Of a DNA stretch of 64,000 nt, positions 1 through 11,903 are shown piece by piece; position 1 is the stretch's first letter, and each line of letters opens with the position of its first letter. The position numbers and the translations under genes were made by a program. A model generated the notes under the pieces. That model was not told the DNA's origin, did not search any database, and saw nothing but the letters and a program-made list of their open reading frames with translations. The stretch spans positions 1 to 64,000 of IMG/VR virus record IMGVR_UViG_3300010413_000018, one strand, 5' to 3'. Source of the stretch: a virus.

Positions 1-707
1 GTCAAATCTTCGTCGACCGGACTGCTCTCACACGGAATATCAATGATACCGCCCTTGCGCCGTACCCGAGCGATCGCCTTTTGAGCTTTAGCGACTTCGT
101 CGGCTGCTTCGGTCAGCGTGATGTCGTGCTGTACGCCAATGTACTTTTCGGGTTCACCGGCTAACGACCGTTCCATCGTTTGTGCTAACTTTGCTGCTTC
201 TACCGCCTGACGCGTAGTCGTCGCAATCTCCCGAAACAACCGCGTCGCCTCCCGTGGGTTCTTCGGTTCGTGAATAGCCAACTCTTCTTCGACCCGTCCG
301 GCTAGCTTTACCGCGCCCTTTAATATTTGTTGGACCGACGCCATCAACGCGATCGCGGTGTGCCGCGCGCCGCGTACCATTTTCACTTCTTCCATCCGTT
401 GTTGTATTGCGTCGTCCTCCGCCCGTACTCGCGTCATCTGATCTCGGCCGGCCTGTTGCTTTGCGAGGTTCTGTATTTCCGCTTCGCGGAGCGTAGCCAG
501 CCGTGCACGTGCGGCTTGCTGCTCCTCGAATATCACGTCTTTTAACGGCCGAAACCCACGGTCCGGCCACCCGCGCTCCCAAGCCTTCTTCGTCGTGACC
601 CGGTTGATCCCGGAGCGCGCGGCACACCTTGTGAAATTTCCAGGCGTGTCCCGGAAGCCTTCAAGCATCGCATTGTACTTTTTTTCATCGATCTGATATC
701 CGCCCAT
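1..707 (-). CDS. Partial HTH/coiled-coil protein, small-terminase-like
   Basis: An open frame of 235 codons runs off the left edge with no stop, so the C-terminus is missing. The ATG at 707 follows AAGGTC, a weak ribosome-binding site. Residues about 8-50 look like a DNA-binding helix-turn-helix (NFTRCAARSGINRVTTKKAW), followed by a long, highly charged, Ala/Glu/Arg-rich helical stretch. An N-terminal HTH plus a coiled-coil body is the usual plan of phage small terminase subunits, which recognise packaging sites. That identity is an inference from architecture, and another DNA-binding phage protein is possible. It is transcribed leftwards, away from the satellite zone that starts just upstream. 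Confidence 0.6.
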   Translation of the reverse strand, partial: MGGYQIDEKKYNAMLEGFRDTPGNFTRCAARSGINRVTTKKAWERGWPDRGFRPLKDVIFEEQQAARARLATLREAEIQNLAKQQAGRDQMTRVRAEDDAIQQRMEEVKMVRGARHTAIALMASVQQILKGAVKLAGRVEEELAIHEPKNPREATRLFREIATTTRQAVEAAKLAQTMERSLAGEPEKYIGVQHDITLTEAADEVAKAQKAIARVRRKGGIIDIPCESSPVDEDL

Positions 708-819
708 GACCTTAAAGTTAGCGCTATCGGTGCCACCACGTCAAATTAAAAGCTTAAGTAATCACTCAGCGATCTAATTGTTCATTATTGCTACCTCACG
801 CACCGTTTACGGTTTGATT
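708..819. other. Non-coding leader between terminase-like gene and satellite
   Basis: No supported gene is present. The stretch is AT-rich near 740-800 and presumably holds the promoter for the gene starting at 707, but no convincing -35/-10 pair stands out. The ordered repeat begins at 820. Confidence 0.5.
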
Positions 820-999
820 AGTGCGCAATGAACGTTATGAACGTTGGGTGAACGTAATGAAAGCGCAATGAACGTAATGAAAGCGCAATGAACGTAATGA
901 AAGCTCAATGAGCGCTACCAACGGCTGGTGAACGGTATGAACGTTGGGTGAGCGTTACCATTGGACAATGAACGTAATGAACGTTGGGTGAGCGCTATG
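820..999. repeat. 9/11-bp alternating satellite, array 1a
   Basis: Exactly 180 bp that parses without remainder into nine 20-bp units, each an 11-bp module plus a 9-bp module. Modules start AACG-like and end in TG or CC. The 11-mers include AACGTTGGGTG, AAAGCGCAATG (twice), AACGGCTGGTG and ATTGGACAATG; the 9-mers include AACGTAATG, AACGTTATG and AGCGCTACC. The internal letters vary, yet module length alternates strictly. No plausible reading frame uses it; the frame crossing 961-1233 is a by-product of the repeat. Confidence 0.9.
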
Positions 1000-1035
1000 A
1001 TAATGGGGAACGCTCATAACCATGGTTACTGTGGT

Positions 1036-1086
1036 AATTACTTAAGCAAGGGCGGTTTTTCGCGGTTTTTTCTTACCCGTCAGGAA
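1036..1086. repeat. 51-bp block, copy A
   Basis: Matches 1408-1458 at 49 of 51 positions. The core reads GGGCGGTTTTTCGCGGTTTT then TTCTTACCCGTCAGGAA. A GC-rich segment followed by two T-runs gives it a terminator-like look on the plus strand, though copy A lacks a perfect stem. A shorter, decayed relative lies at about 3853-3882. Both full copies sit between a 9/11 array and a hairpin element, so the block is one part of a larger composite unit. Confidence 0.85.
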
Positions 1087-1166
1087 CATCACCAACAGTA
1101 CCATCATCACCAACAGTGTAGGCGCGCCGCGTCTATTGCCGGGAATGGTTATTGGGGTTTTGAATC

Positions 1167-1190
1167 ACAGGATTACTGCTCACGCTGTAA
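1167..1190. repeat. Hairpin element (ACAG..TTACTGCT..CTGT), copy a
   Basis: Reads ACAG-GATTACTGCTCACG-CTGT-AA, so the ends can pair around a conserved loop core ATTACTGCT. It lies two bases before the next 9/11 array. The minus strand reads GTGAGCAGTAATCCTG, the same string that forms the start of the small gene at 4242. Confidence 0.75.
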
Positions 1191-1192
1191 TG

Positions 1193-1341
1193 AGCACTCC
1201 CAACGGTGCCCCAACGTTACCATTGGACAATGAACGTTATGAACGGTGCCCCAACGTTACCATTGGACAATGAACAATACCAACGTTGGGTGAACGGCAT
1301 GAACGGGGCATGAACGTTACCAACGGCTGATGAACGTCAGG
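1193..1341. repeat. 9/11-bp alternating satellite, array 1b
   Basis: A leading 9-mer (AGCACTCCC) is followed by seven exact 20-bp units (1202-1341). Modules shared with array 1a include ATTGGACAATG, AACGTTATG and AACGTTGGGTG. AACGGTGCCCC and AACGTTACC each occur more than once here. Length alternation is unbroken. It then decays into ATAATGGTGAGCG, much as array 1a ends in ATAATGGGG. Confidence 0.9.
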
Positions 1342-1407
1342 ATAATGGTGAGCGTTGGTAACTATGGTTATTGGTTCATATGGTTCACTACTGCATGCAC
1401 TATATTG

Positions 1408-1458
1408 AATTACTTAGGTAAGGGCGGTTTTTCGCGGTTTTTTCTTACCCGTCAGGAA
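1408..1458. repeat. 51-bp block, copy B
   Basis: Second copy of the block at 1036-1086, with two differences. Here GGTAAG (near 1417) and CTTACC (near 1444) form a 6-bp inverted repeat around the T-rich core, making a terminator-like hairpin plausible. It is followed by a GC-rich stretch containing GGGGCGCCGTG and GCCGGGGAAAGG, which resembles the stretch after copy A. Confidence 0.85.
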
Positions 1459-1546
1459 ATATTCCCTACGGTAGGTTAACCATACGGGGTGGGGCGCCGT
1501 GCTCACGTTTTATCATGCCGGGGAAAGGTTGGCGCGCTGGGGAATA

Positions 1547-1568
1547 ACAGATTTACTGCTAACTCTGT
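1547..1568. repeat. Hairpin element, copy b
   Basis: ACAG-ATTTACTGCTAACT-CTGT followed by AAAT. The loop matches the copy at 3391-3420 exactly. It marks the switch from the 9/11-type zone to the CTNNR satellite, which starts 10 bp later. Confidence 0.8.
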
Positions 1569-1578
1569 AAATAATAAG

Positions 1579-2183
1579 CTAAGCTAAGCTGAGCTGAGCT
1601 ACGCTCTACTTCACTACACTAGACTATGCCTGCTCCGCTCTGCTCTGCTCTGCTCAGCTAGGCTAAGCTCAGCTAGGCTAAGCTCAGCTCATCTTCACTC
1701 CGCCTGCTCGGCTCTACTGCGCTATACTACGCTACACTTTGCTGAACTCCGCCTGCTCGGCTCTACTGCGCTCAGCTTCGCTCCACTTAGCTATACTATG
1801 CCTGCTTCACTTTGCTTTACTGGGCTTTGCCTGCACTCTGCTCCACTTTGCCTGCTCTACTTAGCTAAACTATGCTAGGCTACGCTCAACTTTGCTAGAC
1901 TTCGCCTGCTCTACTTAGCTGCACTCGGCTCCACTTAGCTTAACTTAGCCTGCTCTGCTGCACTATGCTTTGCTTCACTAAACTTAGCTCCACTTCGCCT
2001 GCTCTGCTTTACTTGGCTCCGCTCAGCTCCACTGTGCTTTGCTCCACTATGCTTTACTTCACTATGCCTGCTCTGCTTTACTATGCTACACTCGGCTTTG
2101 CTGCACTCTACTACGCTACGCCTGCTCTACTTCGCTCGGCTGCACTATGCTCCACTTTGCTATACTGAGCCTGCTCTGCTTTG
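1579..2183. repeat. CTNNR pentamer satellite with CCTG punctuation
   Basis: All 605 bp parse into 112 pentamers of form CTNNR plus eleven CCTG tetramers and one extra C (560+44+1). Only one pentamer, CTCAT, breaks the R rule. Between CCTG marks there are 10, 14, 9, 9, 9, 10, 8, 9, 13, 10 and 9 pentamers, then a final 2. Positions 3-4 vary freely, so this is not a simple microsatellite. It ends at 2183, directly against the stop codon of the next gene (TTA at 2184-2186). Frames inside it have the biased composition of the repeat and are not called as genes. Confidence 0.95.
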
Positions 2184-2816
2184 TTAGTCGCCCAGTTTGA
2201 AATGCCCCATCCCAATACCGCAGGATGTCTTCGAATCCGCTCGTCCCGCGCCAATACCGACCTGCATGCCTACTCGGCTCAATAGGTTGGCAATATCCTG
2301 TTGAGAGAATTGATCGGCGTCAAAACGGACCGTTATGCTCGCTTCCCAACCTTCCGGTAGCAGTCCGCGCGCTAGCACATTGGGCGATCCATCGGCGTTA
2401 CGCGTCATTGACACGTTTTTTTGAAATTCGCCTTTAGTAATGCGGATCAACGGCGTGTGCTCCTCGTTGTCGTAGCCGTCAGCCTCGGTAAAAATAGACA
2501 GCTTGGCGAGGGTCATCTTGAAACCACAAAGTTTACAAGCGCTGACCATTGCGTTACGAAACATATTGGCCGGTAAACCAGCCCAACCATCTGTTGACCA
2601 ATGCACTGAACGCGGCCAGGTCGCGTCGAAGTCAGTGCCTTCCCTACTACGGCGTACATTACGCTTTGAACCCTCAGCGTACGCCGCAATAAATCCGTCG
2701 CGGTTCTGGAACTTATTGGATAAGTACGGGCTGGTGCCAATTAGGGTAAACTTGGCGTATTGAAAGTTGGGCGCAGTGATCTGCACCGTTGCAGTTTTTT
2801 TAGTTTTTGCTACCAT
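2184..2816 (-). CDS. Conserved phage-type protein with glycine-rich C-terminal loop
   Basis: 210 aa, function not recognised. It is a compact, probably soluble protein. Residues about 70-100 contain HWSTDGWAGLPANMFRNAMVS, and the last 30 residues contain VGIGAGRADSK then GIGMGHFKL. A Gly-rich loop after alternating strands recalls RAMP/Cas7-like ferredoxin folds, but no other Cas gene is present, so this is only a fold-level suggestion. Its start overlaps the end of the upstream gene by 17 nt, pointing to a two-gene operon with 2800-3336. Its stop codon touches the CTNNR satellite, so that repeat would form the transcript's 3' end. Confidence 0.8.
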   Translation of the reverse strand: MVAKTKKTATVQITAPNFQYAKFTLIGTSPYLSNKFQNRDGFIAAYAEGSKRNVRRSREGTDFDATWPRSVHWSTDGWAGLPANMFRNAMVSACKLCGFKMTLAKLSIFTEADGYDNEEHTPLIRITKGEFQKNVSMTRNADGSPNVLARGLLPEGWEASITVRFDADQFSQQDIANLLSRVGMQVGIGAGRADSKTSCGIGMGHFKLGD

Positions 2817-3336
2817 TGGTGGTTCCTTTGCTGGTGTTTACTAAACTCGGCGCTAAGTTCTTTATCGCCGACCAAACTTTATTGATGCTCGGATCGTTAA
2901 TGTATTGATATTTATCCGCGATCGCTTGCAGTTGTTGCTTGGCCTTTAAATAAATGCCGTGCTTTTCTTCTTCGGTTAGCATCGTCCAAGGTTTGTAATC
3001 TCCGCATTTGCTAAACGGCTTTTGAGCGTTACTCGGCACTCCGTGGAGCACGCCAACCGAAATGACTTTCTTTTTTGGAGTGATCACTGTCACTTTGACG
3101 GATTGAATCAAATAACTAGCGCGCTTAAGTCGATATTTATGCGCGGCTGCTTCATCATCCCATTCAAATTCGTCGTGTAGTGCGTGATTCGGGTCTTCCG
3201 CTTCCTGTAGCACTAACGCTGGGGTTAGCTTGCTGTGCTTTTTTCTGATCGCAGCAAAAGCACGTCCAACGTTGTTGGCGTCAGTGCGTAAAACGTATCC
3301 ATCGCGTTTTTCATAAACTATTTTGCTTGCAGCCAT
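2800..3336 (-). CDS. Conserved phage hypothetical protein
   Basis: 178 aa from the ATG at 3336, chosen because AAGGAAGGAAAATACC precedes it; an upstream in-frame ATG at 3366 has no such site. The central segment ALHDEFEWDDEAAAHKYRL followed by a hydrophobic strand matches a pattern I recall from many phage and prophage proteins of unknown role. No enzyme motif is visible. The C-terminal 50 residues are Ser/Thr/Asn-rich. It is first gene of a two-gene unit isolated between the two satellite zones, which suggests the unit and the repeats may be functionally linked. Confidence 0.8.
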   Translation of the reverse strand: MAASKIVYEKRDGYVLRTDANNVGRAFAAIRKKHSKLTPALVLQEAEDPNHALHDEFEWDDEAAAHKYRLKRASYLIQSVKVTVITPKKKVISVGVLHGVPSNAQKPFSKCGDYKPWTMLTEEEKHGIYLKAKQQLQAIADKYQYINDPSINKVWSAIKNLAPSLVNTSKGTTNGSKN

Positions 3337-3390
3337 GGTATTTTCCTTCCTTTTAAGTGAATGCACTAATTAATTATTTTTGACACATTT

Positions 3391-3420
3391 ATTTACAGAT
3401 TTACTGCTAACTCTGTAAAT
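3391..3420. repeat. Hairpin element, copy c (perfect 8-bp stem)
   Basis: ATTTACAG (3391-3398) pairs perfectly with CTGTAAAT (3413-3420) around the 14-nt loop ATTTACTGCTAACT. It is the best-formed copy and lies one base before a 9/11 array. Confidence 0.85.
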
Positions 3421-3421
3421 G

Positions 3422-3600
3422 AGCGTATTACCCACGTCACCAACGTAATGAACGCGTTATGAACGCTACCAACGCGTTATGAACGTTACCAACGGTGGGT
3501 GAACGTTACCAACGCGTGATGAACGTAATGAACGTTGGGTGAACGCTACCAACGGTGGGTGAACGCTACCAACGGTGGGTGAACGTAATGATAGCTGGTG
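3422..3600. repeat. 9/11-bp alternating satellite, array 2a
   Basis: From 3451 on, 11-mers and 9-mers alternate (AACGCGTTATG, AACGCTACC, AACGGTGGGTG, AACGTTACC and others). The most regular stretch repeats the 20-mer AACGCTACCAACGGTGGGTG. One irregularity, two consecutive 9-mers, occurs at 3433-3450. The array ends at ATAGCTGGTG, just before another hairpin element. Confidence 0.9.
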
Positions 3601-3604
3601 AACG

Positions 3605-3630
3605 ACAGATTTACTGCTAACTTCGTAAAT
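3605..3630. repeat. Hairpin element, copy d (decayed right arm)
   Basis: ACAGATTTACTGCTAACTT followed by CGTAAAT. The loop is identical to copies b and c, but the right arm has lost the CTGT match, so it should not fold as well. It sits in the same position at the edge of an array. Confidence 0.7.
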
Positions 3631-3728
3631 AAAAAGTATCAAAAATAGTAAAAGCGCGATGAATTAATGAACAATCGGATAAAAGCACCAGCATTTAAAA
3701 ATAAGTGACTCCGCTTTTAGCCGTTACC
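3631..3728. other. AT-rich non-coding gap
   Basis: No gene, stem or promoter could be supported here. It separates array 2a from array 2b and contains short A-rich runs. Confidence 0.5.
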
Positions 3729-3848
3729 AACGTGACCATTGGACAATGAGCACTACCAACGGCGCCCCAACGTTACCAAAGCGCAATGAACGTTACCAAA
3801 GCGCAATGAACGTTACCATCGTGGTACCAACGGTATGATAATGCGGCG
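3729..3848. repeat. 9/11-bp alternating satellite, array 2b
   Basis: Exactly 120 bp, six 20-bp units. Modules include ATTGGACAATG, AAAGCGCAATG (twice) and AACGTTACC (three times), the same words used in arrays 1a and 1b more than 2 kb away. It ends with ATAATGCGGCG, matching the ATAATGG ends of arrays 1a and 1b. Confidence 0.9.
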
Positions 3849-3889
3849 AATGGCTGTTACGCGGCTTTTTCTCTGCCGGGAAGATTACC

Positions 3890-3929
3890 AACACTCCCCC
3901 AACGTAATGAACGGCGCCCCAACGTTACC
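3890..3929. repeat. 9/11-bp alternating satellite, array 2c
   Basis: Two units (AACACTCCCCC, AACGTAATG, AACGGCGCCCC, AACGTTACC) after a short GC/T-rich block (3853-3882) that looks like a decayed form of the 51-bp block. Confidence 0.85.
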
Positions 3930-3932
3930 ATT

Positions 3933-3956
3933 TACAGGATTACTGCTCACGCTGTA
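3933..3956. repeat. Hairpin element, copy e
   Basis: TACAG-GATTACTGCTCACG-CTGTA gives a 5-bp stem with the same loop as copy a. It closes the second repeat zone about 35 bp before the stop codon of the first ZR gene. Confidence 0.75.
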
Positions 3957-3990
3957 GTGCTATCCTAACGGGTTGGTTACGGCGCGAGCG

Positions 3991-4242
3991 TTACCCTTCG
4001 CCTTCTTCTTCGTACATGTCATTGGCGTCAGCTAAACGTTGTTCGTCTGTTTTTACGCTTAGACCGAATTGTTTTCTTAATTTAGTCGGTATTGTAACCA
4101 GTTTAGCCGGATTGTTTGTGTGCACCAACCTGTATGCAATTCCAAGTTCCTCCGGTATCGGTTCGCCGTAGCAAAGGCGGCAGAACTTTTCTCTGCGACC
4201 GCTACAGCGCGGGCAAACTACTTTTTCAGTATTACTGCTCAC
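3991..4242 (-). CDS. ZR-family small two-CxxC protein (ZR1), GTG start
   Basis: 83 aa, and defines the family used below. A CPRC knuckle (10-13) and a CRLC knuckle (21-24) followed by YG are likely to hold one zinc ion, like half of a DnaJ cysteine-rich domain. Then come Pro, LxxAY and a hydrophobic helix, and a second amphipathic helix with LR (about 55). The tail is acidic (EEEGEG). Start is GTG at 4242 inside a GTGAGCAGTAATACTG string that is also the intergenic hairpin element. It overlaps ZR2 by 11 nt and is last of a long co-directional chain. Biochemical role unknown. Confidence 0.85.
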   Translation of the reverse strand: MSSNTEKVVCPRCSGRREKFCRLCYGEPIPEELGIAYRLVHTNNPAKLVTIPTKLRKQFGLSVKTDEQRLADANDMYEEEGEG

Positions 4243-4474
4243 GCTGTAAGATCTTTCTTAATTTCAATACGTGCTGAATACGCACGTACCCATCGGTCAT
4301 CATTAGTATGTAAGCCGCAGCGATCTCTTCAATGACTTGGCCGGTATTATCACACAACGCGCAAATGTCAGCGTTATAGGTCGTGTCAGCGCCAACACAA
4401 TGGAACCCTCTATTTTGCTCGCGCACCGGAGTGCAACGCGGGCAGGGAGTCAGTTTGGCGTCGTCTTGGCTCAT
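4232..4474 (-). CDS. ZR-family protein (ZR2)
   Basis: 80 aa. Knuckles are CPRC (11-14) and CALC (38-41) with a 23-residue linker that holds a spare Cys and His (25-26). AAAYILMM follows. The ATG at 4474 overlaps the upstream stop as ATGA, which decides the start over an in-frame ATG 15 nt further up. The C-terminal helix ends in KLRKILQREQ. The longer, polar linker is the part that differs most from its neighbours. Confidence 0.85.
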   Translation of the reverse strand: MSQDDAKLTPCPRCTPVREQNRGFHCVGADTTYNADICALCDNTGQVIEEIAAAYILMMTDGYVRIQHVLKLRKILQREQ

Positions 4475-4695
4475 TTCGCATGCCCCCAACGTTCCTCGTA
4501 AACATTTGGTAAGTCAAAAGCGCGCCGCAGCTCATCACACTGTTCTGAACTCGGCACTTTGCATTCTTCGAAGCCTTCACGCAACAATAAATAAGCAGTG
4601 CGCAGATCAGCAGGGATCTCGCGATCGTAGCACAAACGACACGCGTACATATATCCACCACAGCGCGGGCATTGTACTGCTTTCCTGGTCTTCAT
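4471..4695 (-). CDS. ZR-family protein (ZR3)
   Basis: 74 aa with a minimal linker: CPRC (9-12), CRLC (19-22). TAYLLL and the helix QCDELRRAFDLP follow, the latter very close to EQLRRNFDLP of ZR8. The start ATGAAG overlaps the stop of ZR4 by 4 nt. With ZR4 it forms a pair that looks duplicated at ZR9/ZR10. Confidence 0.85.
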   Translation of the reverse strand: MKTRKAVQCPRCGGYMYACRLCYDREIPADLRTAYLLLREGFEECKVPSSEQCDELRRAFDLPNVYEERWGHAK

Positions 4696-4904
4696 GGCGC
4701 TATCCCTGCTTTGTCTAGCTTTTCAATAATGCGATCGTACTCTGCCCACATAAAAGGCCCGTCATCGTCAGGTAGCAGAAGCTCGTACGCGGCCAAACGC
4801 TCTTTTGATACCCACCCTTTACCTTTACACATACCACAACCGCACCAACCGGCTCGCTCGCACTGAGGACAGCGCACTTTTCCTTTTCTTGGGTTACTGC
4901 TCAT
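4692..4904 (-). CDS. ZR-family protein (ZR4)
   Basis: 70 aa. CPQC (12-15) and CGMC (23-26) with an additional Cys at 21. AAYELLL follows. It begins MSSN, the same N-terminus as ZR1, and ends IIEKLDKAGIAP, nearly the same end as ZR10. It overlaps ZR5 by 11 nt and ZR3 by 4 nt. Confidence 0.85.
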   Translation of the reverse strand: MSSNPRKGKVRCPQCERAGWCGCGMCKGKGWVSKERLAAYELLLPDDDGPFMWAEYDRIIEKLDKAGIAP

Positions 4905-5187
4905 TTTGTAACTCCGCGAGTAACTGTAAAACCGTGCTCTCTAATGGACGCCAAACATACTTACCTAAATCAGGTATGATCAAACGGACCGCAACCGCAT
5001 AATGAGTCGGCACTACACCGCAGCCAGTGCAAAACACACATACAATATCGTGGTCATCATGAAGTATCTGTTTCTTTGTGTTCACCCAGAGACGAGGTTC
5101 CTTGCTTGACGGTAGGCTTTTACCGCGCGTTAGTTTTCCGTACCCGTAACAAATGGGGCACATTTCTCTTTTAGTGTTAATGCTCAT
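4894..5187 (-). CDS. ZR-family protein (ZR5), long linker
   Basis: 97 aa. CPIC followed by YGYG (10-17) is DnaJ-like; the second knuckle CVFC (50-53) lies 36 residues on, with an extra Cys at 56. The linker is basic and contains HDDHD. The AY motif has become YAVAV, so this is one of the more divergent members. Starts MSIN, and overlaps ZR6 by 4 nt. Confidence 0.8.
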   Translation of the reverse strand: MSINTKREMCPICYGYGKLTRGKSLPSSKEPRLWVNTKKQILHDDHDIVCVFCTGCGVVPTHYAVAVRLIIPDLGKYVWRPLESTVLQLLAELQNEQ

Positions 5188-5384
5188 TCTGTATCCATTT
5201 GTCGGGTTAGTTTAGCAATTTCATAAAACTGCAGAAATCCGTCTTCATCTGCCAGTAGCGCGTACGCGGTAGCCAACGATCTCGGCACGCGCCAATTAGC
5301 TAAACACAATGGGCATAACACGCTCCGGCCGGTATGCGCGCACCTAGGACAATCTACCAAATCATTGTTATCCTGACCGTTCAT
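5184..5384 (-). CDS. ZR-family protein (ZR6)
   Basis: 66 aa, among the shortest. CPRC (12-15), CPLC (24-27), then VPRSLATAYALL and a short C-terminal helix. The N-terminus is polar and acidic. Seven bases separate it from ZR7 downstream, one of few junctions in the chain without overlap. Confidence 0.85.
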   Translation of the reverse strand: MNGQDNNDLVDCPRCAHTGRSVLCPLCLANWRVPRSLATAYALLADEDGFLQFYEIAKLTRQMDTE

Positions 5385-5391
5385 AGCGCGT

Positions 5392-5613
5392 TCACTCGTT
5401 TTCCATTGCTATTAAATTCTCTCGCAACGCTTTGGCTTCCGAGGTAAGGCTCATCACTATTTCTTTTCCAGTGTCTGAGTCAATTGTTAACGGAAATCTC
5501 ATATAATATGCGGCAGTCCACGATTCAGGTACGCCGCGCTGACCTTGACAAAATGAGCAAAGCGCACGGCAGCCACAACGTGGGCATGCAACCCAACGTT
5601 CATACCTGCTCAT
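5392..5613 (-). CDS. ZR-family protein (ZR7)
   Basis: 73 aa from the ATG at 5613, chosen because it overlaps the stop of ZR8 as ATGA. CPRC (10-13) with Cys15, then CSFC (19-22) and QG. TAAYYM replaces the usual AYxLL. An unusually long polar stretch precedes a final helix rich in Glu and Leu. Confidence 0.85.
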   Translation of the reverse strand: MSRYERWVACPRCGCRALCSFCQGQRGVPESWTAAYYMRFPLTIDSDTGKEIVMSLTSEAKALRENLIAMENE

Positions 5614-5849
5614 TCCCAATCCTTATTTACTGGTAAGTCAAAGTTCCGCCGTAACTGCTCACATTTTGCTTCTGAAAGCCCAAAATACTTATTACCACTA
5701 GACATCAATATGTACGCTACTCTCAGCTCAATTGGAATCCTTTTTCCGTAGCACAATGGACACTTCGATAAAACACCATCGCACCAAGGACACACTTCTT
5801 CCTGCGGTATCATTGGGCTAAATAATTCTTCGTTTACTTCGTCTGCCAT
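5610..5849 (-). CDS. ZR-family protein (ZR8)
   Basis: 79 aa. A 19-residue acidic N-terminus precedes CPWC (20-23) and CPLC (30-33), with only six residues between the knuckles. VAYILM and EQLRRNFDLP follow; the latter is almost shared with ZR3. Overlaps ZR9 by 16 nt. Confidence 0.85.
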   Translation of the reverse strand: MADEVNEELFSPMIPQEEVCPWCDGVLSKCPLCYGKRIPIELRVAYILMSSGNKYFGLSEAKCEQLRRNFDLPVNKDWE

Positions 5850-6079
5850 CGTTCAATATCCATTAATAATGCTGCGGTTTCTGGTGGCGATGGGTGCACT
5901 GGGTAGCCGCGTTCAGTGCTTAGTAAAAAACTGTACGCGGTAGCTAAGTCTTCAGGCACTTTGTGCTTACCGCGACATAGCGTGCAACTCCCAGCGTAAA
6001 TACGATCTCCGTCGTACGGCCAATTCAACGCGCAACAACGCGGGCAGTTTACCATTGGTTGCGTCTTCCTTTTCTTCAT
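5834..6079 (-). CDS. ZR-family protein (ZR9)
   Basis: 81 aa from the ATG at 6079 (ATGA overlap with ZR10; an upstream in-frame ATG would extend far into ZR10). MKKRK start resembles MKTRK of ZR3. CPRCC (12-16), CTLC (32-35), then KVPEDLATAYSFLL. The C-terminal part has a Pro-rich insert (PVHPSPPE). Confidence 0.85.
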   Translation of the reverse strand: MKKRKTQPMVNCPRCCALNWPYDGDRIYAGSCTLCRGKHKVPEDLATAYSFLLSTERGYPVHPSPPETAALLMDIERWQTK

Positions 6080-6318
6080 GGTGCTATCCCGACGTTCTTG
6101 AGCTTGGTCAGTATTTCTATCCACTGGTCAACGCTTAAAATCGGTCCTCCTCCGGCCCAAAACTGTACGCCTTCCGGTAGTAGCATCGTAAATGCCACGT
6201 GCCGTTCAGGCGTCAAATAGCCTGTGCCACGACATAAACCGCAGTACTTGTACTTAAATGTCCCTCCTCTACCAGTAAGGCAGGCCGGACACTGTATTAA
6301 TTCTCCTTTAGATTTCAT
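6076..6318 (-). CDS. ZR-family protein (ZR10)
   Basis: 80 aa. CPAC (10-13) and CGLC (26-29) followed by RGTG. HVAFTMLL stands in for AYxLL. The insert FWAGGGP is Gly-rich. The C-terminus LTKLKNVGIAP echoes ZR4, and in both cases the stop is overlapped by an ATGAAG start. Confidence 0.85.
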   Translation of the reverse strand: MKSKGELIQCPACLTGRGGTFKYKYCGLCRGTGYLTPERHVAFTMLLPEGVQFWAGGGPILSVDQWIEILTKLKNVGIAP

Positions 6319-6530
6319 TCGCCGATCACTTCCTTACGTAGCTTCTCCAACCGTTCTGCCATCGCCCAAACGTCGTACTCCTGTAAAGCTCGTTCAACAT
6401 CATCCTTAACCAACCAAAAAGCCGCGTTTAATGCTGGAGATACGTAACCGCGCCCTAAACACAGTTGACACGTGCCGATTGAAACGTACTGACAAAACTG
6501 CGCTGGGCACACTATCCGGCTCTTCCTCAC
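6315..6530 (-). CDS. ZR-family protein (ZR11), altered first knuckle
   Basis: 71 aa. The first knuckle is CPAQFC (8-13), with four residues between the cysteines instead of two. The second is normal, CQLC (21-24). AAFWLV follows, and the C-terminus is a charged helix LEKLRKEV. Metal binding may be changed or lost. Overlaps both neighbours by 4 nt. Confidence 0.8.
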   Translation of the reverse strand: MRKSRIVCPAQFCQYVSIGTCQLCLGRGYVSPALNAAFWLVKDDVERALQEYDVWAMAERLEKLRKEVIGE

Positions 6531-6808
6531 GTCTTCCTACCCTTCCTCAGTGCTACCAAGTCTTCATAATGCGCGAAGTAATCGTCGTCTTCTTCTTTTT
6601 GTGTTAACAGCACGTACGCGATTTTATCTTCTGGAGTCACCTTTTTAGTACCACAACAAAGTGGACAAGTAACGAATTTAAAATCCCAGCGTGGATTGGC
6701 TTTCCTAATTACTGTTTCTTCAGGAACGATTCCATAATATTCGTACGGTGCACAATATACCATGCCTTCATTAGAACAAAGCGGACATTTAACTTTTTTA
6801 GTACCCAT
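6527..6808 (-). CDS. ZR-family protein (ZR12), long linker
   Basis: 93 aa from the ATG at 6808; a longer form from 6847 would overlap ZR13 by 50 nt and has no better start site. CPLC (8-11), lone Cys19, CPLCC (48-52). The 36-residue linker is aromatic-rich (YEYYG, RWDFKF). IAYVLL follows. The C-terminus is acidic then basic (RKGRKT). Confidence 0.8.
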   Translation of the reverse strand: MGTKKVKCPLCSNEGMVYCAPYEYYGIVPEETVIRKANPRWDFKFVTCPLCCGTKKVTPEDKIAYVLLTQKEEDDDYFAHYEDLVALRKGRKT

Positions 6809-7085
6809 ACTTATCCCATAAGTGATCAACTTCAACATTGAACTCAAGCGCTTGATAGGTATGCAGACAGTCTGTTTCCAAGTCAGGATGCTTTAGATAC
6901 AGAGCCGCGCTCACCGGTTCAGGCAGTTTGCCCGTACCTTTACAAATTGGGCAAGGCTTTTGATTATAATGAACGCCAGGAACATCAGGTGGCACTACAA
7001 AGCCTGACTGAATCCAACATAAGCGATCCACCCATTTTACTCCTTCACATACGGGGCAAAGAATCCGTTTTACGCGCTTACTCAA
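6798..7085 (-). CDS. ZR-family protein (ZR13), TTG start
   Basis: 95 aa if started at TTG 7085, which follows AAAGAGG at good spacing and overlaps the stop of ZR14. An ATG-only reading would begin at 7160, deep inside ZR14. CPVC (10-13), Cys23, CPICKGTG (45-52), the last being a textbook DnaJ-type CxxCxGxG. SAALYL replaces AYxLL. Confidence 0.75.
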   Translation of the reverse strand: MSKRVKRILCPVCEGVKWVDRLCWIQSGFVVPPDVPGVHYNQKPCPICKGTGKLPEPVSAALYLKHPDLETDCLHTYQALEFNVEVDHLWDKYGY

Positions 7086-7383
7086 AATACCTCTTTCTTT
7101 GTTTTTTAGACAAACTAATCCCGTCTGGACTTTGCATCTTAAAGTAGCACCCATGATCAAAAAACTGATGAAACGGCATCTTTAGCCCATCGACTTGCGT
7201 TCTTATAGTCCATATTTCAGATACACTAACGCGCTCTACACTCAAACTGTCGCTAACAAGTAATAAGTACGCGGAAGCTAGTGCAGCCGATACTTTACGC
7301 TGCTGGCTACAAAGGAAGCACGTTCCTTTATGCTGCACATCTTTACAGCGCGGGCACGGTACCTTTTCATGATTTTTTATCAT
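7078..7383 (-). CDS. ZR-family protein (ZR14), extended C-terminus
   Basis: 101 aa. CPRC (10-13), CFLC (22-25), SAYLLL. About 35 residues more than the family norm follow the last helix, basic and aromatic, ending KKQRKRYFE. The extension overlaps ZR13's start region by only 8 nt, so it is not an overlap artefact. Confidence 0.8.
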   Translation of the reverse strand: MIKNHEKVPCPRCKDVQHKGTCFLCSQQRKVSAALASAYLLLVSDSLSVERVSVSEIWTIRTQVDGLKMPFHQFFDHGCYFKMQSPDGISLSKKQRKRYFE

Positions 7384-7585
7384 ATAATAAATCTATTTTC
7401 ATTTGGCTAACATCATCGATAGCCGGTGGAACGTCGGGCGTGTTCGCACACAATAGCGCGTAACCGATCATTATTATTTCCGGTATTGGCTTTCCGTGGC
7501 ACAGCCCACAGCCTTTCCACGCTGGAGTTTCTGGGCTTAAAATATGACACCCACAACGCGGGCATGTTAACGACGGATCGCTCAT
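7367..7585 (-). CDS. ZR-family protein (ZR15)
   Basis: 72 aa. CPRCGC (8-13), CGLC (26-29) then HGKPIPE. IGYALL follows. The linker holds a Trp (PAWKG). The C-terminal helix is QMKIDLLYDKKS. Overlaps ZR14 by 17 nt and the upstream non-ZR gene by 4 nt. Confidence 0.85.
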   Translation of the reverse strand: MSDPSLTCPRCGCHILSPETPAWKGCGLCHGKPIPEIIMIGYALLCANTPDVPPAIDDVSQMKIDLLYDKKS

Positions 7586-7770
7586 GAAGCCATCAGCTGA
7601 CGGTTAAACTCCACCGTTATTGGACCGCTGAACACTTCCCCACCGTCAGCATCGGTGCACACCATGTAGTCTTCCTCCGACACTGGGGCGATCTTCAGCT
7701 TTTCACCGTCAAACTCAATACGTACAAGGCGTCCGTCTTTTAGTTCGAGCGTTATTTTCGTCTCTTTCAT
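7582..7770 (-). CDS. Small non-ZR protein in the ZR chain
   Basis: 62 aa, not recognised and without cysteine pairs. It looks like a small beta-rich protein (ITLELKDGRLVRIEFDGEKL). TAGGAGTACCAA gives a good ribosome-binding site for the ATG at 7770. First gene of a minus-strand transcript ending in the ZR1-15 chain, back to back with the divergent lipoprotein gene at 7830. Confidence 0.8.
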   Translation of the reverse strand: MKETKITLELKDGRLVRIEFDGEKLKIAPVSEEDYMVCTDADGGEVFSGPITVEFNRQLMAS

Positions 7771-7799
7771 TTGGTACTCCTATGTAAAATTGCTACTAT
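7771..7799 (+). promoter_or_regulatory. Promoter for lipoprotein gene
   Basis: TTGGTA (7771-7776), 17-bp spacer, TACTAT (7794-7799) on the plus strand, about 30 bp before the lipoprotein start. Confidence 0.6.
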
Positions 7800-7829
7800 T
7801 TAGTTAATGCTCGGACGTTGGAGATTTGA

Positions 7830-8003
7830 ATGAAAAAAGTGATTTTCCTTTTGTTGGTCGCGGTTTCTTTACTAGGTAGCTGCTTGCTAATTGACTCAGA
7901 TATTGACGTCGACAGCGACATCACCATCAATAACGATCTTCCACCCAATAAACTAAATGTTGCTTTTGACGACGACGCTGGAGTAGATCCCGATCTGTTT
8001 TAG
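7830..8003 (+). CDS. Small predicted lipoprotein
   Basis: 57 aa: a short basic N-terminus MKK, hydrophobic core, then lipobox LLGSC with Cys18 as the predicted lipidated residue. The mature part is very acidic (repeated Asp) with PP. GGAG lies 7 nt before the ATG and a -35/-10 pair lies upstream. Likely exported and anchored in a membrane. Candidate roles are an outer-membrane spanin or a superinfection-exclusion protein; neither is shown. Its last 77 bases overlap the 3' end of ZR16 on the other strand. It is the only plus-strand gene within 3991-9909. Confidence 0.75.
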   Translation: MKKVIFLLLVAVSLLGSCLLIDSDIDVDSDITINNDLPPNKLNVAFDDDAGVDPDLF

Positions 8004-8250
8004 TGTAACCAGGCAACGGAATTCCCATTTCTTCCATAAACGCTTGCAAGTCCGGGCCAGTAGGTGCGCTCGCCCCAAGCTTTAGTGCAAACGCGGTCAC
8101 TACTGTTTGATCCAACTTTTTAGATCCACGGCACAACGGACACATATCACCTTTAAAAATACTTTTAGGGAATATGCGATAGTGGCCATCCGCTGTTGCC
8201 ATCAGTACAACTTCCCCTTTCCCACCACATAATGGACATTTTTCCATCAT
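7927..8250 (-). CDS. ZR-family protein (ZR16)
   Basis: 107 aa. CPLCGGKG (5-12) and CPLCRG (37-42), with a 28-residue linker. TAFALKL follows. The last 25 residues (QRRRQKQH and on) are antisense to the Asp-rich end of the lipoprotein gene, so this tail may be shaped by the overlap. Start overlaps ZR17's stop as ATGA. Confidence 0.8.
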   Translation of the reverse strand: MMEKCPLCGGKGEVVLMATADGHYRIFPKSIFKGDMCPLCRGSKKLDQTVVTAFALKLGASAPTGPDLQAFMEEMGIPLPGYTKTDRDLLQRRRQKQHLVYWVEDRY

Positions 8251-8396
8251 TTCTTTTTAGCTCCAAAGCGCTTAGCGATTCGTGTGAATTCGGTGTAATT
8301 CGGCAGCTTATCAACCGTGTCTACCAATATCAGGTAAGCGGCATGCAGAGCAGGCGTTACTTTTGATTTACCATTACAAATTGGACATGGCACCAA
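8247..8396 (-). CDS. Half ZR protein (ZR17), single CxxC
   Basis: 49 aa from TTG 8396 (GTG 8393 also possible). It keeps only one knuckle, CPICNGKSKV, then AAYLIL and the C-terminal helix. The codon chain up to the ZR18 stop has no second CxxC, so this looks like a ZR gene that has lost its first knuckle. Its stop is overlapped 4 nt by the ATG of ZR16, as between intact neighbours, which argues it is still translated. No clear ribosome-binding site. Confidence 0.6.
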   Translation of the reverse strand: MVPCPICNGKSKVTPALHAAYLILVDTVDKLPNYTEFTRIAKRFGAKKK

Positions 8397-8400
8397 CTCA

Positions 8401-8586
8401 TTATTTAAACATACTGACAAGTTCTCTAACCTGAGTTCCCGGTATTAAAGTTTTACGCTCATCTTCTAATAAAATGTACGCTGTACGCAATTCTTCAGAA
8501 ATCGGCTTACCTTTACATAATGCACACAACGCGTCTCTTCTCGGTGCGTAGCAGCCACAGCGCGGGCACGGTTTTTCATTCGCCAT
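8401..8586 (-). CDS. ZR-family protein (ZR18), near-minimal
   Basis: 61 aa, the shortest complete member. CPRCGC (7-12), CALCKGKPIS (21-30), LRTAYILL, then VRELVSMF. Because it has little else, it is a good core template for the family. Overlaps ZR19 by 11 nt. Confidence 0.85.
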   Translation of the reverse strand: MANEKPCPRCGCYAPRRDALCALCKGKPISEELRTAYILLEDERKTLIPGTQVRELVSMFK

Positions 8587-8890
8587 TATACTCGTCTTCT
8601 CCTACGTCAATGCGTAGTTGCTGTAAGTTAAAAAACAAGTCTGAGTACCTACGCCACCTTAGATCTCTATCAATCTGATCGACGACCAACAAATAAGCCG
8701 CGTTGAGTTCTTTGGATATCGCTTTGCCGTGGCATAACAAGCAACCCACCTCAATCTTACCGCATGTAGGGCACCCGCCGTACTTTAATAATTGCAGTTG
8801 CGGCTTAATAGGCAAACCGTGACAAAACGGGCACTCATTGATCAATACTTTATAAATAGTTTTACAATATGGACATCGAATAACGCGCAT
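8576..8890 (-). CDS. Double ZR protein (ZR19), four CxxC
   Basis: 104 aa with four knuckles: CPYC (6-9), CPFCHG (20-25), CPTC (40-43), CLLCHGKAIS (50-59). The first pair is followed by PIKPQLQLLK, a worn copy of the region before the AY helix; the second pair by AAYLLV. Best explained as an in-frame fusion of one truncated and one complete ZR unit. Shares a single base with the upstream gene. Confidence 0.85.
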   Translation of the reverse strand: MRVIRCPYCKTIYKVLINECPFCHGLPIKPQLQLLKYGGCPTCGKIEVGCLLCHGKAISKELNAAYLLVVDQIDRDLRWRRYSDLFFNLQQLRIDVGEDEYNGE

Positions 8891-9207
8891 TATTGAGTTG
8901 ATAAGTTTCTATTTCCTAGTTGTGCCAGCTCAAAGCGCTCTTTCCACTCTTCAAGCGAAATGAACGTTTCGCCATGAGTATCGTCCCATACGATCCACCC
9001 ACCGGCCATGTCTGACAGCCACTTCAAGGCTTCTAAGTCGCGCTCAGAAATCTGTCCTTGTCCGTAGTGAAACGGTGCCTCACGCAACATGGCGTACCAC
9101 AACGTGTACTCTAATCCCATCATCCATCCGGCGCAGTAGCACCGTTCGGAGATCTCACTCATGTACTTTGCTAATACAAACGCTTGAATGCTAAGTATAG
9201 GATGCAT
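8890..9207 (-). CDS. Phage hypothetical protein, Trp-rich
   Basis: 105 aa, not a ZR protein and not recognised. The N-terminal half is helical (CAGWMMGLEYTLWYAMLRE) with a Cys pair CYC. The middle has WLSDMAGGWIVWDD. AAGAAAGGAAATACC precedes the ATG. Leads the transcript into ZR19-16 with a one-base overlap (TAATG type). Confidence 0.8.
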   Translation of the reverse strand: MHPILSIQAFVLAKYMSEISERCYCAGWMMGLEYTLWYAMLREAPFHYGQGQISERDLEALKWLSDMAGGWIVWDDTHGETFISLEEWKERFELAQLGNRNLSTQ

Positions 9208-9244
9208 GGTATTTCCTTTCTTATTAAGTTAATGCCGTTCCAAA

Positions 9245-9469
9245 TTATTTTTGTACCTTATCTTGCGCTTTCAGCATTAAAATTAGGTCACGCGTCTCAA
9301 TGCCAGTCGGATGCGTATTCCCGTGCATAATCAAAAGGTACGCAGTTACGTAATACTCAGGAACCGGCACTCCACCGCACAATTGACACCAGGACGTGCC
9401 ATCAGCGCGTCTAATACCGCGCCCACGGCAACGCGGGCAGTTATAAGGCTCTAGTGTCGGTGTGCCCAT
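9245..9469 (-). CDS. ZR-family protein (ZR20)
   Basis: 74 aa. CPRCRGRG (11-18) and CQLCGG (28-33), linker with Trp. TAYLLI follows. The last helix LILMLKAQDK lacks the usual LR pair. Overlaps ZR21 by 29 nt. Confidence 0.85.
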   Translation of the reverse strand: MGTPTLEPYNCPRCRGRGIRRADGTSWCQLCGGVPVPEYYVTAYLLIMHGNTHPTGIETRDLILMLKAQDKVQK

Positions 9470-9656
9470 AGCGCTTTCTTAACTCTTCAATATGCTTAAC
9501 TTCGTTACACTCTAAGGCGCGCCCCCAGTAATCCGGGAATCCGTATAAACGATAAGCAGCAGCCAATTCAGTTGGAACGTAGCGCACTCCTGCGCACAGA
9601 TAACACGATCCTAAATACGTTCGACCGCAGTTACATCTAGGGCACCTTACATCCAT
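9441..9656 (-). CDS. ZR-family protein (ZR21)
   Basis: 71 aa. CPRCNC (5-10), CYLCAG (18-23), AAAYRLY, then an aromatic loop (GFPDYWG) and IEELRKRYG. First ZR gene of this minus-strand cluster; no strong promoter was identified in the 46 bp upstream. Confidence 0.85.
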   Translation of the reverse strand: MDVRCPRCNCGRTYLGSCYLCAGVRYVPTELAAAYRLYGFPDYWGRALECNEVKHIEELRKRYGHTDTRAL

Positions 9657-9702
9657 ATTAGGTGAATGGGCGACTGTAAAAGTTTTTGTAAACTTACGGC
9701 GC

Positions 9703-9909
9703 CTACCCAGTCGCGACGAGCTTCAGCGGCTCTTCCTGCTCTTCCGGGATGGGTTCCTTCTCCGGATCCGGATCAAAGTCATCGTCAAAGTTATCATCAT
9801 CCGAATCAAATTCCGCACAAATAGAGGCGCCGTCCGGTAAATGCACGGTTAAAACAGTCGGATGCAACGTACGAAAAAGCTTTATCAGTTCACGTAGTTC
9901 TTTCCGCAT
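9703..9909 (-). CDS. Small acidic protein
   Basis: 68 aa. A basic N-terminal helix (MRKELRELIKLFRTL) leads to a strand-like stretch and then a very acidic run (SDDDNFDDDFDPDPEKEPIPEEQEE is its composition, about residues 36-60). Not recognised; the tail could mimic nucleic acid or act as a linker. Divergent from the operon at 10045. Confidence 0.65.
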   Translation of the reverse strand: MRKELRELIKLFRTLHPTVLTVHLPDGASICAEFDSDDDNFDDDFDPDPEKEPIPEEQEEPLKLVATG

Positions 9910-9991
9910 ACAAGTATTGTGCCAGCTCGTATATTAATGATCAAGTTACTGGTTATTTTGATGTAAGTTACTGTAAGCATAATTATTTTAT

Positions 9992-10038
9992 TTGCAACGT
10001 TACTTTTTATTTGCAAACGTAACAAAATGAAGTATGCT
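9992..10038 (+). promoter_or_regulatory. Tandem-box promoter P1
   Basis: TTGCAA at 9992 and again at 10011 (19 bp apart, separated by ACGTTACTTTTTAT), then a 16-bp spacer and TATGCT (10033-10038). Start is predicted about 7 nt on, at the A of ATGGAC (10045). The proximal TTGCAA serves as -35; the distal box is extra and conserved in nine other promoters, so it may be an activator or operator site. Confidence 0.8.
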
Positions 10039-10044
10039 TTAAAT

Positions 10045-10368
10045 ATGGACAGCAACAAAGGAAATAAGATGGGAAACAGCGAAAAAACAACAATCAACAC
10101 CGTTTACTACACCGCTTACGCGTTTGCATCAACCCTAATCGCCGCCGTCGACGACAGAGACGCTGACTGGGATCTGGTTGACCAGACCGCAAAAGACACC
10201 GTAGCCGCGTGTGAAGAAGTTGTTCCTAGCCCAGCCCTTAGCCGCGCGCTCGACTACGCGGAAGCGATCGTGAACCGCGAAGCCAAAGCCACCTACGAAG
10301 CCATCAAAAACGTAGCCGGCCTTGACGACGCGCTTATGAGCGAGCTGTCCACCCTACTCTGCAACTAA
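10045..10368 (+). CDS. Phage hypothetical protein, paralogue of 19959
   Basis: 99 aa if started at ATG 10069 (AAAGGAAATAAG precedes it), or 107 aa from a leaderless ATG at 10045; both are in frame. An apparent ATG at 10027 lies inside the promoter and is rejected. Mostly helical and acidic. The segment VPSPALSRALDYAEAIVNRE matches LPGNALSNVLQIAESMTG of the protein at 19959, so the two are distant paralogues, each behind the same promoter type. Function unknown. Confidence 0.75.
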   Translation: MDSNKGNKMGNSEKTTINTVYYTAYAFASTLIAAVDDRDADWDLVDQTAKDTVAACEEVVPSPALSRALDYAEAIVNREAKATYEAIKNVAGLDDALMSELSTLLCN

Positions 10369-10381
10369 TAAAGGCTCAAAC

Positions 10382-10750
10382 ATGGACGAAAACACCAGAA
10401 ACAAAGTCGCGAAACTGCCTGTGTGGGCGCGCAACCTAATAAACCAGCTTGAAGTGGAAGTCGCTTGCTACCAGCACGAGATCGAAACCTTGAAGCAAGT
10501 AAAAACGTCGCGGATCTACTACGGTTTTGAAGCATCACAGCGTGGCATGATGCCGATCCCCGACGACGGTCCAGTCACCTTCATGATGGGTCAGCTAAAG
10601 CCAGAAAACGAGTTTTCGCGAATACGTATCAGCTACGATCGCGACGCGCTTGAACCGGACAAATGGCTGACTGTAAGCAGTGACCTCGGCGCCCTTCTGG
10701 TAAAGCCGTGGGCCAGCAACATGATCAAGATCAAGATCGAAGATCGGTAA
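10382..10750 (+). CDS. Conserved phage hypothetical protein
   Basis: 122 aa. Begins with a helical stretch LPVWARNLINQLEVEVACY followed by a predicted coiled coil, then a beta-rich domain (FSRIRISYDRDA, WLTVSSDLGALLVKPWASN). I recall similar proteins (LPxWAxxLIxxLE) in many phages, without a function. AAAGGCTCAAAC precedes the ATG. Its stop is followed directly by the ATG of ZR22. Confidence 0.8.
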   Translation: MDENTRNKVAKLPVWARNLINQLEVEVACYQHEIETLKQVKTSRIYYGFEASQRGMMPIPDDGPVTFMMGQLKPENEFSRIRISYDRDALEPDKWLTVSSDLGALLVKPWASNMIKIKIEDR

Positions 10751-11014
10751 ATGCCAAAGCAAGAAATGGTGATGTGCCCGCGATGCTACTTTTTTTGCGT
10801 GGCACCACCACGCCAAGGGGAAGAGTGTCATACTCAATGCGCGCTATGCGGTAATAAAAAGCAAGTTCCAGAAGATCTTGCTACCGCATACGCGCTAGTT
10901 GAAGACCACCTTCACGGCCACCCTACCACCAACGAAACGATCCGGCTAAAAAACGATTACTGGGGATGTGAATGGCGCCTAGAAATTGAACAGTCTAAAA
11001 ATCATCCCAAATAG
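10751..11014 (+). CDS. ZR-family protein (ZR22), plus strand
   Basis: 87 aa. CPRC (9-12) and CALC (30-33) with two spare cysteines (16, 26). KQVPEDLATAYALV is close to ZR9. Third gene of the P1 operon, immediately after the preceding stop. Its last 20 nt overlap the end of ZR23 coming from the other strand, so the two share a convergent junction without a terminator. Confidence 0.85.
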   Translation: MPKQEMVMCPRCYFFCVAPPRQGEECHTQCALCGNKKQVPEDLATAYALVEDHLHGHPTTNETIRLKNDYWGCEWRLEIEQSKNHPK

Positions 11015-11297
11015 ACTTATTTTTAACTAATCGGTACCACTTCGGTAAATCACGCGATAACCGTGCGGTTTCTTTATTGTTTTTCTCTCCGCTGTAAGTT
11101 TGGCGAACTTTCCGAGCTACGTCTTCATTCTTAAAACCTGACTTATCGTCACTGTCGTATAATAACCGATACGCGGTACTCATTTCTTCCGTAACCGATC
11201 GCGCTCCTTCGCATAACCGGCAGCCGTTAGGTCGGCGCCATGGGCTACCATGACACATCGGGCACGCTACGTTTTCTTTCTTACGCTTGGGCATCAT
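10995..11297 (-). CDS. ZR-family protein (ZR23), basic tail
   Basis: 100 aa. CPMCHGSPW (12-20), CRLCEG (26-31), STAYRLL. After the last helix a 30-residue Lys/Arg/Asn-rich extension follows (SGEKNNKETARLSRD). Overlaps ZR24 by 17 nt. Confidence 0.85.
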   Translation of the reverse strand: MMPKRKKENVACPMCHGSPWRRPNGCRLCEGARSVTEEMSTAYRLLYDSDDKSGFKNEDVARKVRQTYSGEKNNKETARLSRDLPKWYRLVKNKSIWDDF

Positions 11298-11514
11298 AAT
11301 CCTTTCTCAAGCTTAGTGCAGTTTCTCGCGAAACTGATTCTCCAACGTTCGAAATAAGCGCGTAAGCGGTTGCTAGATCTGAATTGACACTATTTGTCCC
11401 GTAGCATAAAACGCAGTCAGTAAACCCAAAATATCCGCCGTCAACGTCTACGCCACCACAGCGCGGACATTCCACCTTACTTAGATCGCCGTCGATTTTT
11501 CTGTCGCTGGGCAC
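11281..11514 (-). CDS. ZR-family protein (ZR24)
   Basis: 77 aa. CPRCGG (16-21) and CVLCYG (34-39); the linker is Gly/Asp/Phe-rich (GVDVDGGYFGFTD). NSDLATAYALI and SLRKDY follow. Overlaps ZR25 by 38 nt. Confidence 0.85.
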   Translation of the reverse strand: MPSDRKIDGDLSKVECPRCGGVDVDGGYFGFTDCVLCYGTNSVNSDLATAYALISNVGESVSRETALSLRKDYDAQA

Positions 11515-11716
11515 TAAAGTCCTTTTTCAACTGATAAATCTCGTTTGAAGATGGCGCCGTACCGTCTTCATGCTTCAAAAGTAAATACGCGGTTTCCAAG
11601 TTTTTTGAAACGTAGCCGCGCGTCCCACACAAAAAACACACGCACGTCTCGTTCCACGCGTTTTTCATACCGGCCGTACCGCCACAATGCGGGCAGTCTT
11701 TATGCTTCTTAGTCAT
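11477..11716 (-). CDS. ZR-family protein (ZR25)
   Basis: 79 aa. CPHCGGTAG (8-16), Cys25, CFLCGTRGYV (27-36), ETAYLLL. A basic tail (RQKNRRRSK) lies within the overlap with ZR24 and could reflect that overlap or nucleic-acid binding. Confidence 0.85.
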   Translation of the reverse strand: MTKKHKDCPHCGGTAGMKNAWNETCVCFLCGTRGYVSKNLETAYLLLKHEDGTAPSSNEIYQLKKDFSAQRQKNRRRSK

Positions 11717-11903
11717 AGCCTAAGTCTACCCTTACTTTTATTGTTTCTTCGATCGTTAACCAGCCACCGGTTGAAGCGTCAACTGTAAGCTTGTAAGCGG
11801 CAGCCAAATCTTCGGACACACGCCGCGTATTGGCGCACAACGAACACGGAACGCCGATCCCGTCGCAGCGCGGACACACTTCACTGTGGTCGTTGTTTAT
11901 CAT
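11709..11903 (-). CDS. ZR-family protein (ZR26)
   Basis: 64 aa from the ATG at 11903; starting at 11957 would add 18 residues that only retrace ZR27 in another frame. CPRCDGIG (10-17), CSLC (20-23), AAAYKL. Very short linker of six residues. Confidence 0.8.
   Translation of the reverse strand: MINNDHSEVCPRCDGIGVPCSLCANTRRVSEDLAAAYKLTVDASTGGWLTIEETIKVRVDLGYD

Follow-up and report, generated by a model that had tools for sequence, protein, structure and literature searches.

Arrays of alternating 9- and 11-bp modules bracket a VIPR locus in the genome of a large phage and may be sites for a DNA-binding protein

The stretch of DNA analyzed here, bases 1-64000 of the 140,728-bp IMG/VR virus record IMGVR_UViG_3300010413_000018 (the window), carries near its start five arrays in which modules of 9 and 11 bp alternate (A1, A2, B1, B2, and B3; Table 1). 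The 9/11 arrays lie in clusters in the largest intergenic gap, share one orientation and fall within a single 3.1-kb region; their module pattern is found nowhere else in the record. Between them lies a VIPR (Viral Interference Programmable Repeat) system, with a gene for the Vipr protein, a partner gene and an array of pentamer guides. A sequence-only reading of the window had described the 9/11 arrays but not the pentamer array, and it missed the region's most informative fact, namely that VIPR is bracketed by the 9/11 arrays. Its observation of the arrays is confirmed and its interpretation is partly supported: the arrays at 820-3930 are real and without match elsewhere.

Table 1. Features of the array region, with positions in the window.
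Feature	Position	Strand	Description
Array A1	820-999	+	9 units of 20 bp; anchor spacing, self-match, parse
Array A2	1193-1341	+	One 9-mer and 7 units of 20 bp; parse
Array B1	3422-3600	+	9+9 irregularity at 3433-3450; 7 in-register units at 3451-3590; parse
Array B2	3718-3848	+	First module (3718-3728) absent from the sequence-only reading; 3729-3848 is 6 units; parse
Array B3	3890-3929	+	2 units; parse
Vipr protein	2184-2816	-	Cas7/Csm3-like RAMP, 210 aa, phrog_4652
VIPR partner gene, vap candidate	2800-3366	-	phrog_15946, HDEFEWDD motif, 188 aa
VIPR guide (vrRNA) array	1574-2185	-	YNNAG pentamers (AGY/NN) in about 12 segments, each starting with the 4-mer GCNN after AGCAG
51-bp element (tailX) after A1	1036-1086	+	96% identical to 1408-1458
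51-bp element (tailX copy) after A2	1408-1458	+	Sequence comparison
26-bp element beside A2	1167-1192	-	Inverted-repeat arms ATTAC/GTAAT
26-bp element at the minus-strand 3' end of the pentamer array	1547-1572	-	
26-bp element between vap and B1	3395-3420	-	
26-bp element after B1	3605-3630	-	
26-bp element after B3	3934-3959	-	

The alternation of module lengths is strict. The arrays parse into 67 modules that follow the 9/11 alternation at 61 of the 62 junctions, and the sole exception is the 9+9 in B1 that the sequence-only reading had pointed out; its division of A1 and of 3729-3848 into exactly nine and exactly six units of 20 bp holds as well. Because the module borders are our own assignment, the spacing of anchors of the form (TG/CC)A[AG]CG serves as independent evidence for the parse: inside the five arrays the spacings are 9, 11, 20 or 29, all sums of the alternation, and spacings of 18 and 19 are confined to array ends. 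Self-match at lags 20, 40, and 60 in the four long arrays exceeds that of dinucleotide shuffles by 6 to 13 standard deviations (sd), that of the short fifth array (3890-3932) does so by 3.9 sd at lag 20, and 12 exact matches to a 44-bp pattern of two units occur in the window, against 0 in 100 shuffles.

The modules combine nearly fixed with variable positions. The last two bases are TG or CC in 65 of the 67 modules, as had been claimed, though the accompanying statement that modules start AACG-like does not hold throughout, as ATTGGACAATG and AAAGCGCAATG recur. Among the 65 modules tabulated, the 9-mers end in CC (18), TG (14) or GG (1; n = 33) and the 11-mers in TG (24) or CC (8; n = 32), with no TC or CG ending; the TG/CC ending is truly binary. 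Columns 1, 3, 4, and 7 of the 9-mers are nearly fixed and columns 5 and 6 variable, and the spread of column conservation over the 31 units of 20 bp that are in register gives a chi2 of 100, against a maximum of 57 in 20,000 uniform draws. Several other ways of reading the arrays fail. Stops in all or most frames of every long array, and the lack of a long shared frame, rule out coding sequence; the best self-match lags of the four long arrays are 20, 40, 60, 9, 11, 29, and 31, lag 5 is not among the ten best, and a pentamer reading fails; the best covariation of a palindrome or pairing kind inside the 20-bp units (z 3.7, out of hundreds of column pairs compared) is taken as noise.

Modules recur between arrays far more often than their columns predict. 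Among the 31 units there are 28 identical pairs of 11-mers and 62 of 9-mers; across different arrays the counts are 17 and 45, compared with 0.14 and 13.8 in column-shuffled data, an excess from which it follows that modules behave as whole words. These words are not linked to each other, since an identical pair of 11-mers is followed by the same 9-mer in 4 cases against 3.76 expected by chance. Nor do the arrays share an order: in 10 of 10 array pairs the best register is no better than that of shuffled units (lowest 70/500), and the array orders all differ, in line with the earlier description of words reused in different orders. Slippage of a single 20-bp unit, named at that time as one outcome that would overturn the description, accounts poorly for this. 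Adjacent units are no more alike (identity 0.635) than when their order is shuffled inside the arrays (0.655, with 4165 of 5000 shuffles as high). The phage minisatellites L030 and L078, which like the 9/11 arrays are head-to-tail short repeats, differ from them in that their neighboring units are alike (0/3000 and 28/3000 shuffles as high). A third control, the short 6-bp repeat at 59395, also lacks neighbor similarity (1000/3000); the test therefore has little power when arrays are short. Recurring words, no linkage, no likeness of neighbors and no common order together make simple 20-bp slippage a poor explanation. As the 51-bp flanks of A1 and A2 are 96% identical, either word order has changed faster than the flank or the two arrays were never copies of each other.

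The locus between the arrays is a VIPR system. The 2026 description of VIPR presents an RNA-guided inter-phage weapon that predates CRISPR; the system uses an ancestral RAMP protein and guide RNAs that alternate GGY and NN and recognize DNA with a one-base skip, and in its loci the guide RNAs flank the genes on both sides (PMC13142463). The locus in the window resembles this description in its Vipr with a Cas7/Csm3 fold, its partner gene and its pentamer array, which follows the Vipr stop codon directly and on the same strand. The RAMP (Cas7-like) fold is that of an AlphaFold2 model (mean pLDDT 82.8, pTM 0.77), which matches CRISPR Csm3/Cas7 subunits: all of the best 50 Foldseek rows are structures of CRISPR effectors (best E 1.2e-6), and the best VIA-align match is Csm3 (Z 12.1, rmsd 3.7, 153 aligned residues). 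Relatives of Vipr with 40 to 50% identity occur in many viral contigs: at least 546 IMG/VR stretches and 18 loci in GTDB genomes encode members of the family, and the only match among 50,697 GenBank phage records is a protein annotated as hypothetical in cyanophage Cy-LDV1 (L155; BK059895.1, 3001-3627; 45% identity). The partner gene lies upstream of vipr on the same strand, and its family is found near Vipr in relatives among the matches listed, which makes it a candidate vipr-accessory gene (vap). The model of its product has no match in the PDB (best Foldseek E 0.26, best Z 4.0); by eye, its predicted order of helices and strands may be winged-helix-like.

The guide array consists of tandem pentamers with a conserved, GGY-related consensus, here AGYNN, and variable NN. 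A occupies the first constant position in 110 of 122 units, and over 100 units the entropy is 0.08, 0.24, and 1.29 bits at A, G, and Y and 1.94 and 1.91 bits at the two N positions; the NN is identical to that of the neighboring unit in 8 of 89 cases, no excess over the 7.0 expected. In the fetched relatives, where the arrays also adjoin the gene, all 6824 pentamer units counted lie on the Vipr strand, with a method that found runs in 113 of 147 sources (window included) and missed them in 34. In contrast to the GGY/NN consensus in the main text of the VIPR paper (PMC13142463) and in the other relatives, the guides of the phage are AGY/NN. They share this with L086 (51% identity in Vipr), whose guide array at 2200-2610 is the only other one in the fetched sources with mostly A (0.85 of 75 units; next 0.33); the substitution, shared with one relative, makes a rule of protein-RNA contact testable. 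The VIPR arrays of L032 and L033 have A at the first constant base in about one quarter of their units, between GGY and AGY. Ten guides of at least seven dinucleotides gave no match above shuffled controls in the phage's own record or in 2.6 Mb of fetched loci on both strands, and an exact search of IMG/VR with one guide gave none. Self-targeting was likewise not seen above control at a one-base skip, the perfect skip-3 matches being the array itself.

Besides the modules, two constant elements accompany the arrays (Table 1). On the Vipr strand, the 26-nt element stands directly 3' of A2, of B1, and of the guide array. It is also present at three gene junctions (4226-4251, 4888-4913, and 5171-5196), where the copies overlap the stop and start of small minus-strand genes (..EQ* into MSSN..) and keep the inverted repeat. 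Its outer arms covary: the second position has three types of pair, and the score is reached in 0 of 500 shuffles (7 distinct sequences). The element may be an operator or a hairpin. RNA of the region of the tail element (1000-1090) folds no better than shuffles, and the same is true of + strand RNA of 820-1100, 1160-1480, and 3400-3640. Minus-strand RNA of B1 (3400-3640) folds 3.3 sd better than shuffles (z -3.3, 1/200), which is not so in the other regions folded. A search of 1-5400 against Rfam gave no match at an E of up to 5, and so none of the hammerheads that have been reported in some VIPR arrays. Two promoters were found where 4.4 were expected.

The 9/11 arrays belong to this phage's own version of the locus rather than to VIPR in general. 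None of the 146 loci fetched by searches with Vipr or the partner gene, which overlap in places and include some contigs twice, passed the filter for a 20-bp array without a 5-bp period (four had other periods), and the closest relative locus, L086, has no 9/11 array. A stricter module pattern had no match in GTDB, a pattern scan of IMG/VR returned one locus (L056), a repeat in the coding frame of an unrelated virus, and a looser second pattern returned none in IMG/VR; these scans demand the AACG anchor, miss arrays with another anchor, and may omit records of the window's own genome or of very near ones. Flanking arrays of this kind are absent from the main text of the VIPR paper (PMC13142463), and no paper on alternating 9/11 arrays turned up in the literature searches made.

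We propose, with a probability of roughly 0.4, that the 9/11 arrays are cis-acting DNA arrays of putative protein-binding sites, scrambled in register. A phage protein, probably a dimer or a filament former, would sit on paired half-sites of AACG type, separated by 9 and 11 bp and repeated every 20 bp; selection would maintain the anchor bases and the spacing, and short in-register exchanges of modules, by gene conversion or template switching with the recombination enzymes of the phage, would scramble a small lexicon of words. The array-bound protein could then control or organize the VIPR region or nearby replication. The binding itself, the identity of the binder and its role in the VIPR region or in replication are what we infer. 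Uneven columns, fixed spacing and the binary ending point to sites read by a protein, and the free order of words points to short, in-register exchange. The single odd length among the junctions, words shared without linkage or order, the nearly identical flank beside A1 and A2, the stops in the arrays and the lack of a fold signal on the + strand are consistent with such sites, as are their one orientation and one region, the two HTH_17 proteins of the phage and its UvsX-like and SbcCD-like recombination genes. If a protein or ribonucleoprotein does read the arrays, they would be modular arrays of a new kind. Free combination of words under strict spacing is not what ordinary slippage produces.

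Several observations weigh against this proposal. The Vap family is present near Vipr in relatives that lack 9/11 arrays, which speaks against Vap being the binder. The record, which may be incomplete, holds no ParA-type ATPase (AAA_31), tubulin or tyrosine integrase, the AAA_31 and tubulin controls being positive; in the corresponding test for ParM (StbA) the control was silent. GC skew has no turning point at the arrays. The folding of the B1 minus strand is the sole structure result that points to RNA. Finally, with a helical repeat of 10.5 bp, the 20-bp unit does not make up a whole number of turns, and the earlier suggestion that every unit sits on one face of the DNA is weak: a unit spans 1.9 turns and lags by 34 degrees, nine units lag by most of a turn, and phasing on one face requires that the DNA be held at 10.0 bp per turn.

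Of the alternatives, which we rank in the order given here, the first is a neutral satellite, grown from one short repeat and homogenized and scrambled by register-keeping recombination without any function. Recurrence of whole words across arrays, most marked for the 11-mers, is as expected from gene conversion, and four pairs of 20-mers are identical. Units are slightly more alike within an array (0.658) than between arrays (0.611; 8 of 2000 label shuffles), and units two apart, at 40 bp, show a weak similarity (0.702 against 0.656; 213 of 5000 shuffles). Such a satellite would not, however, be expected to have unevenly conserved columns, a single junction of odd length among 62, endings of TG or CC without TC or CG as intermediates, and neighboring units that are not similar, and we regard it as rather unlikely. 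If it is nevertheless correct, the arrays show an in-register exchange able to imitate a code.

We consider it distinctly less probable that the arrays encode noncoding guide-like RNAs, in which an array tract with a constant element would form a second type of RNA alongside the VIPR guides, with Vipr or another protein as its reader. The arrays are placed exactly where VIPR loci hold guides, on both sides of the genes (PMC13142463). The main support is the terminal 26-nt element, a covarying inverted repeat that A2, B1, and the pentamer array share on the Vipr strand. In the orientation of that strand, the modules have the form (GGY or CAY)-NN-CGTT and (GGY, CAY or GGG)-NN-NN-CGTT, their free order matches that of the pentamer guide array, and the minus-strand folding of B1 fits an RNA. 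The main objection is that the 26-nt element also lies over coding junctions. Moreover, the 9/11 arrays have no 5-nt period, their variable columns hold 1.3-1.9 bits compared with 1.9 for the guide NN, coupling within words is strong and unlike a base-by-base code, the phage has only one Vipr gene, tail elements fold no better than shuffles, and no such array was found near the 146 fetched loci. A further step, in which the arrays would be a second information-bearing code, 26-nt capped and with a meaningful word order read by Vipr, its partner or another protein, seems to us improbable.

An iteron-type replication origin or a partition site of the phage, a special mechanistic case of the protein-binding sites with predictions of its own, is placed last and is very unlikely, as the ~20 bp direct repeats clustered in the largest intergenic gap and the phage's own DnaB-like helicase and DNA polymerase are set against no change of skew, no ParA or tubulin partner in the record, no initiator protein identified (though no systematic search was made) and interruption of the arrays by the guide array and two genes.

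Iterons and ParR-type centromere arrays are clustered direct repeats of about 10-20 bp that are read by cooperative DNA-binding proteins. The 9/11 arrays resemble them in clustering and repeat length, but have two alternating lengths, discrete words in unlinked order and no identified partner gene. In CRISPR and TIGR arrays, constant and variable parts alternate, as they do here; the 9/11 arrays differ in having a 20-bp unit, no long repeat or hypervariable spacers, and words that recur across arrays. The many identical modules among the 31 units do not fit a CRISPR array.

No GenBank phage has DNA near to positions 1-12000, and no similar DNA was found in GenBank phages, plasmids or E. coli. 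PHROG matches in the window include a family A DNA polymerase, a DnaB-like helicase, a UvsX-like recombinase and SbcC/SbcD-like proteins. Among the matches listed, the polymerase has at best 25 to 29% identity to GenBank phages; its identity to two short contigs from IMG/VR is 56 and 65%. Both HTH_17 proteins, at 51792 and 53461, score above the family cut-off. The short 6-bp repeats (CCTTTT, GCCTTG) at 59395-59541 lie within a 503-aa gene (58543-60054) with a PHROG match to HNH endonucleases.

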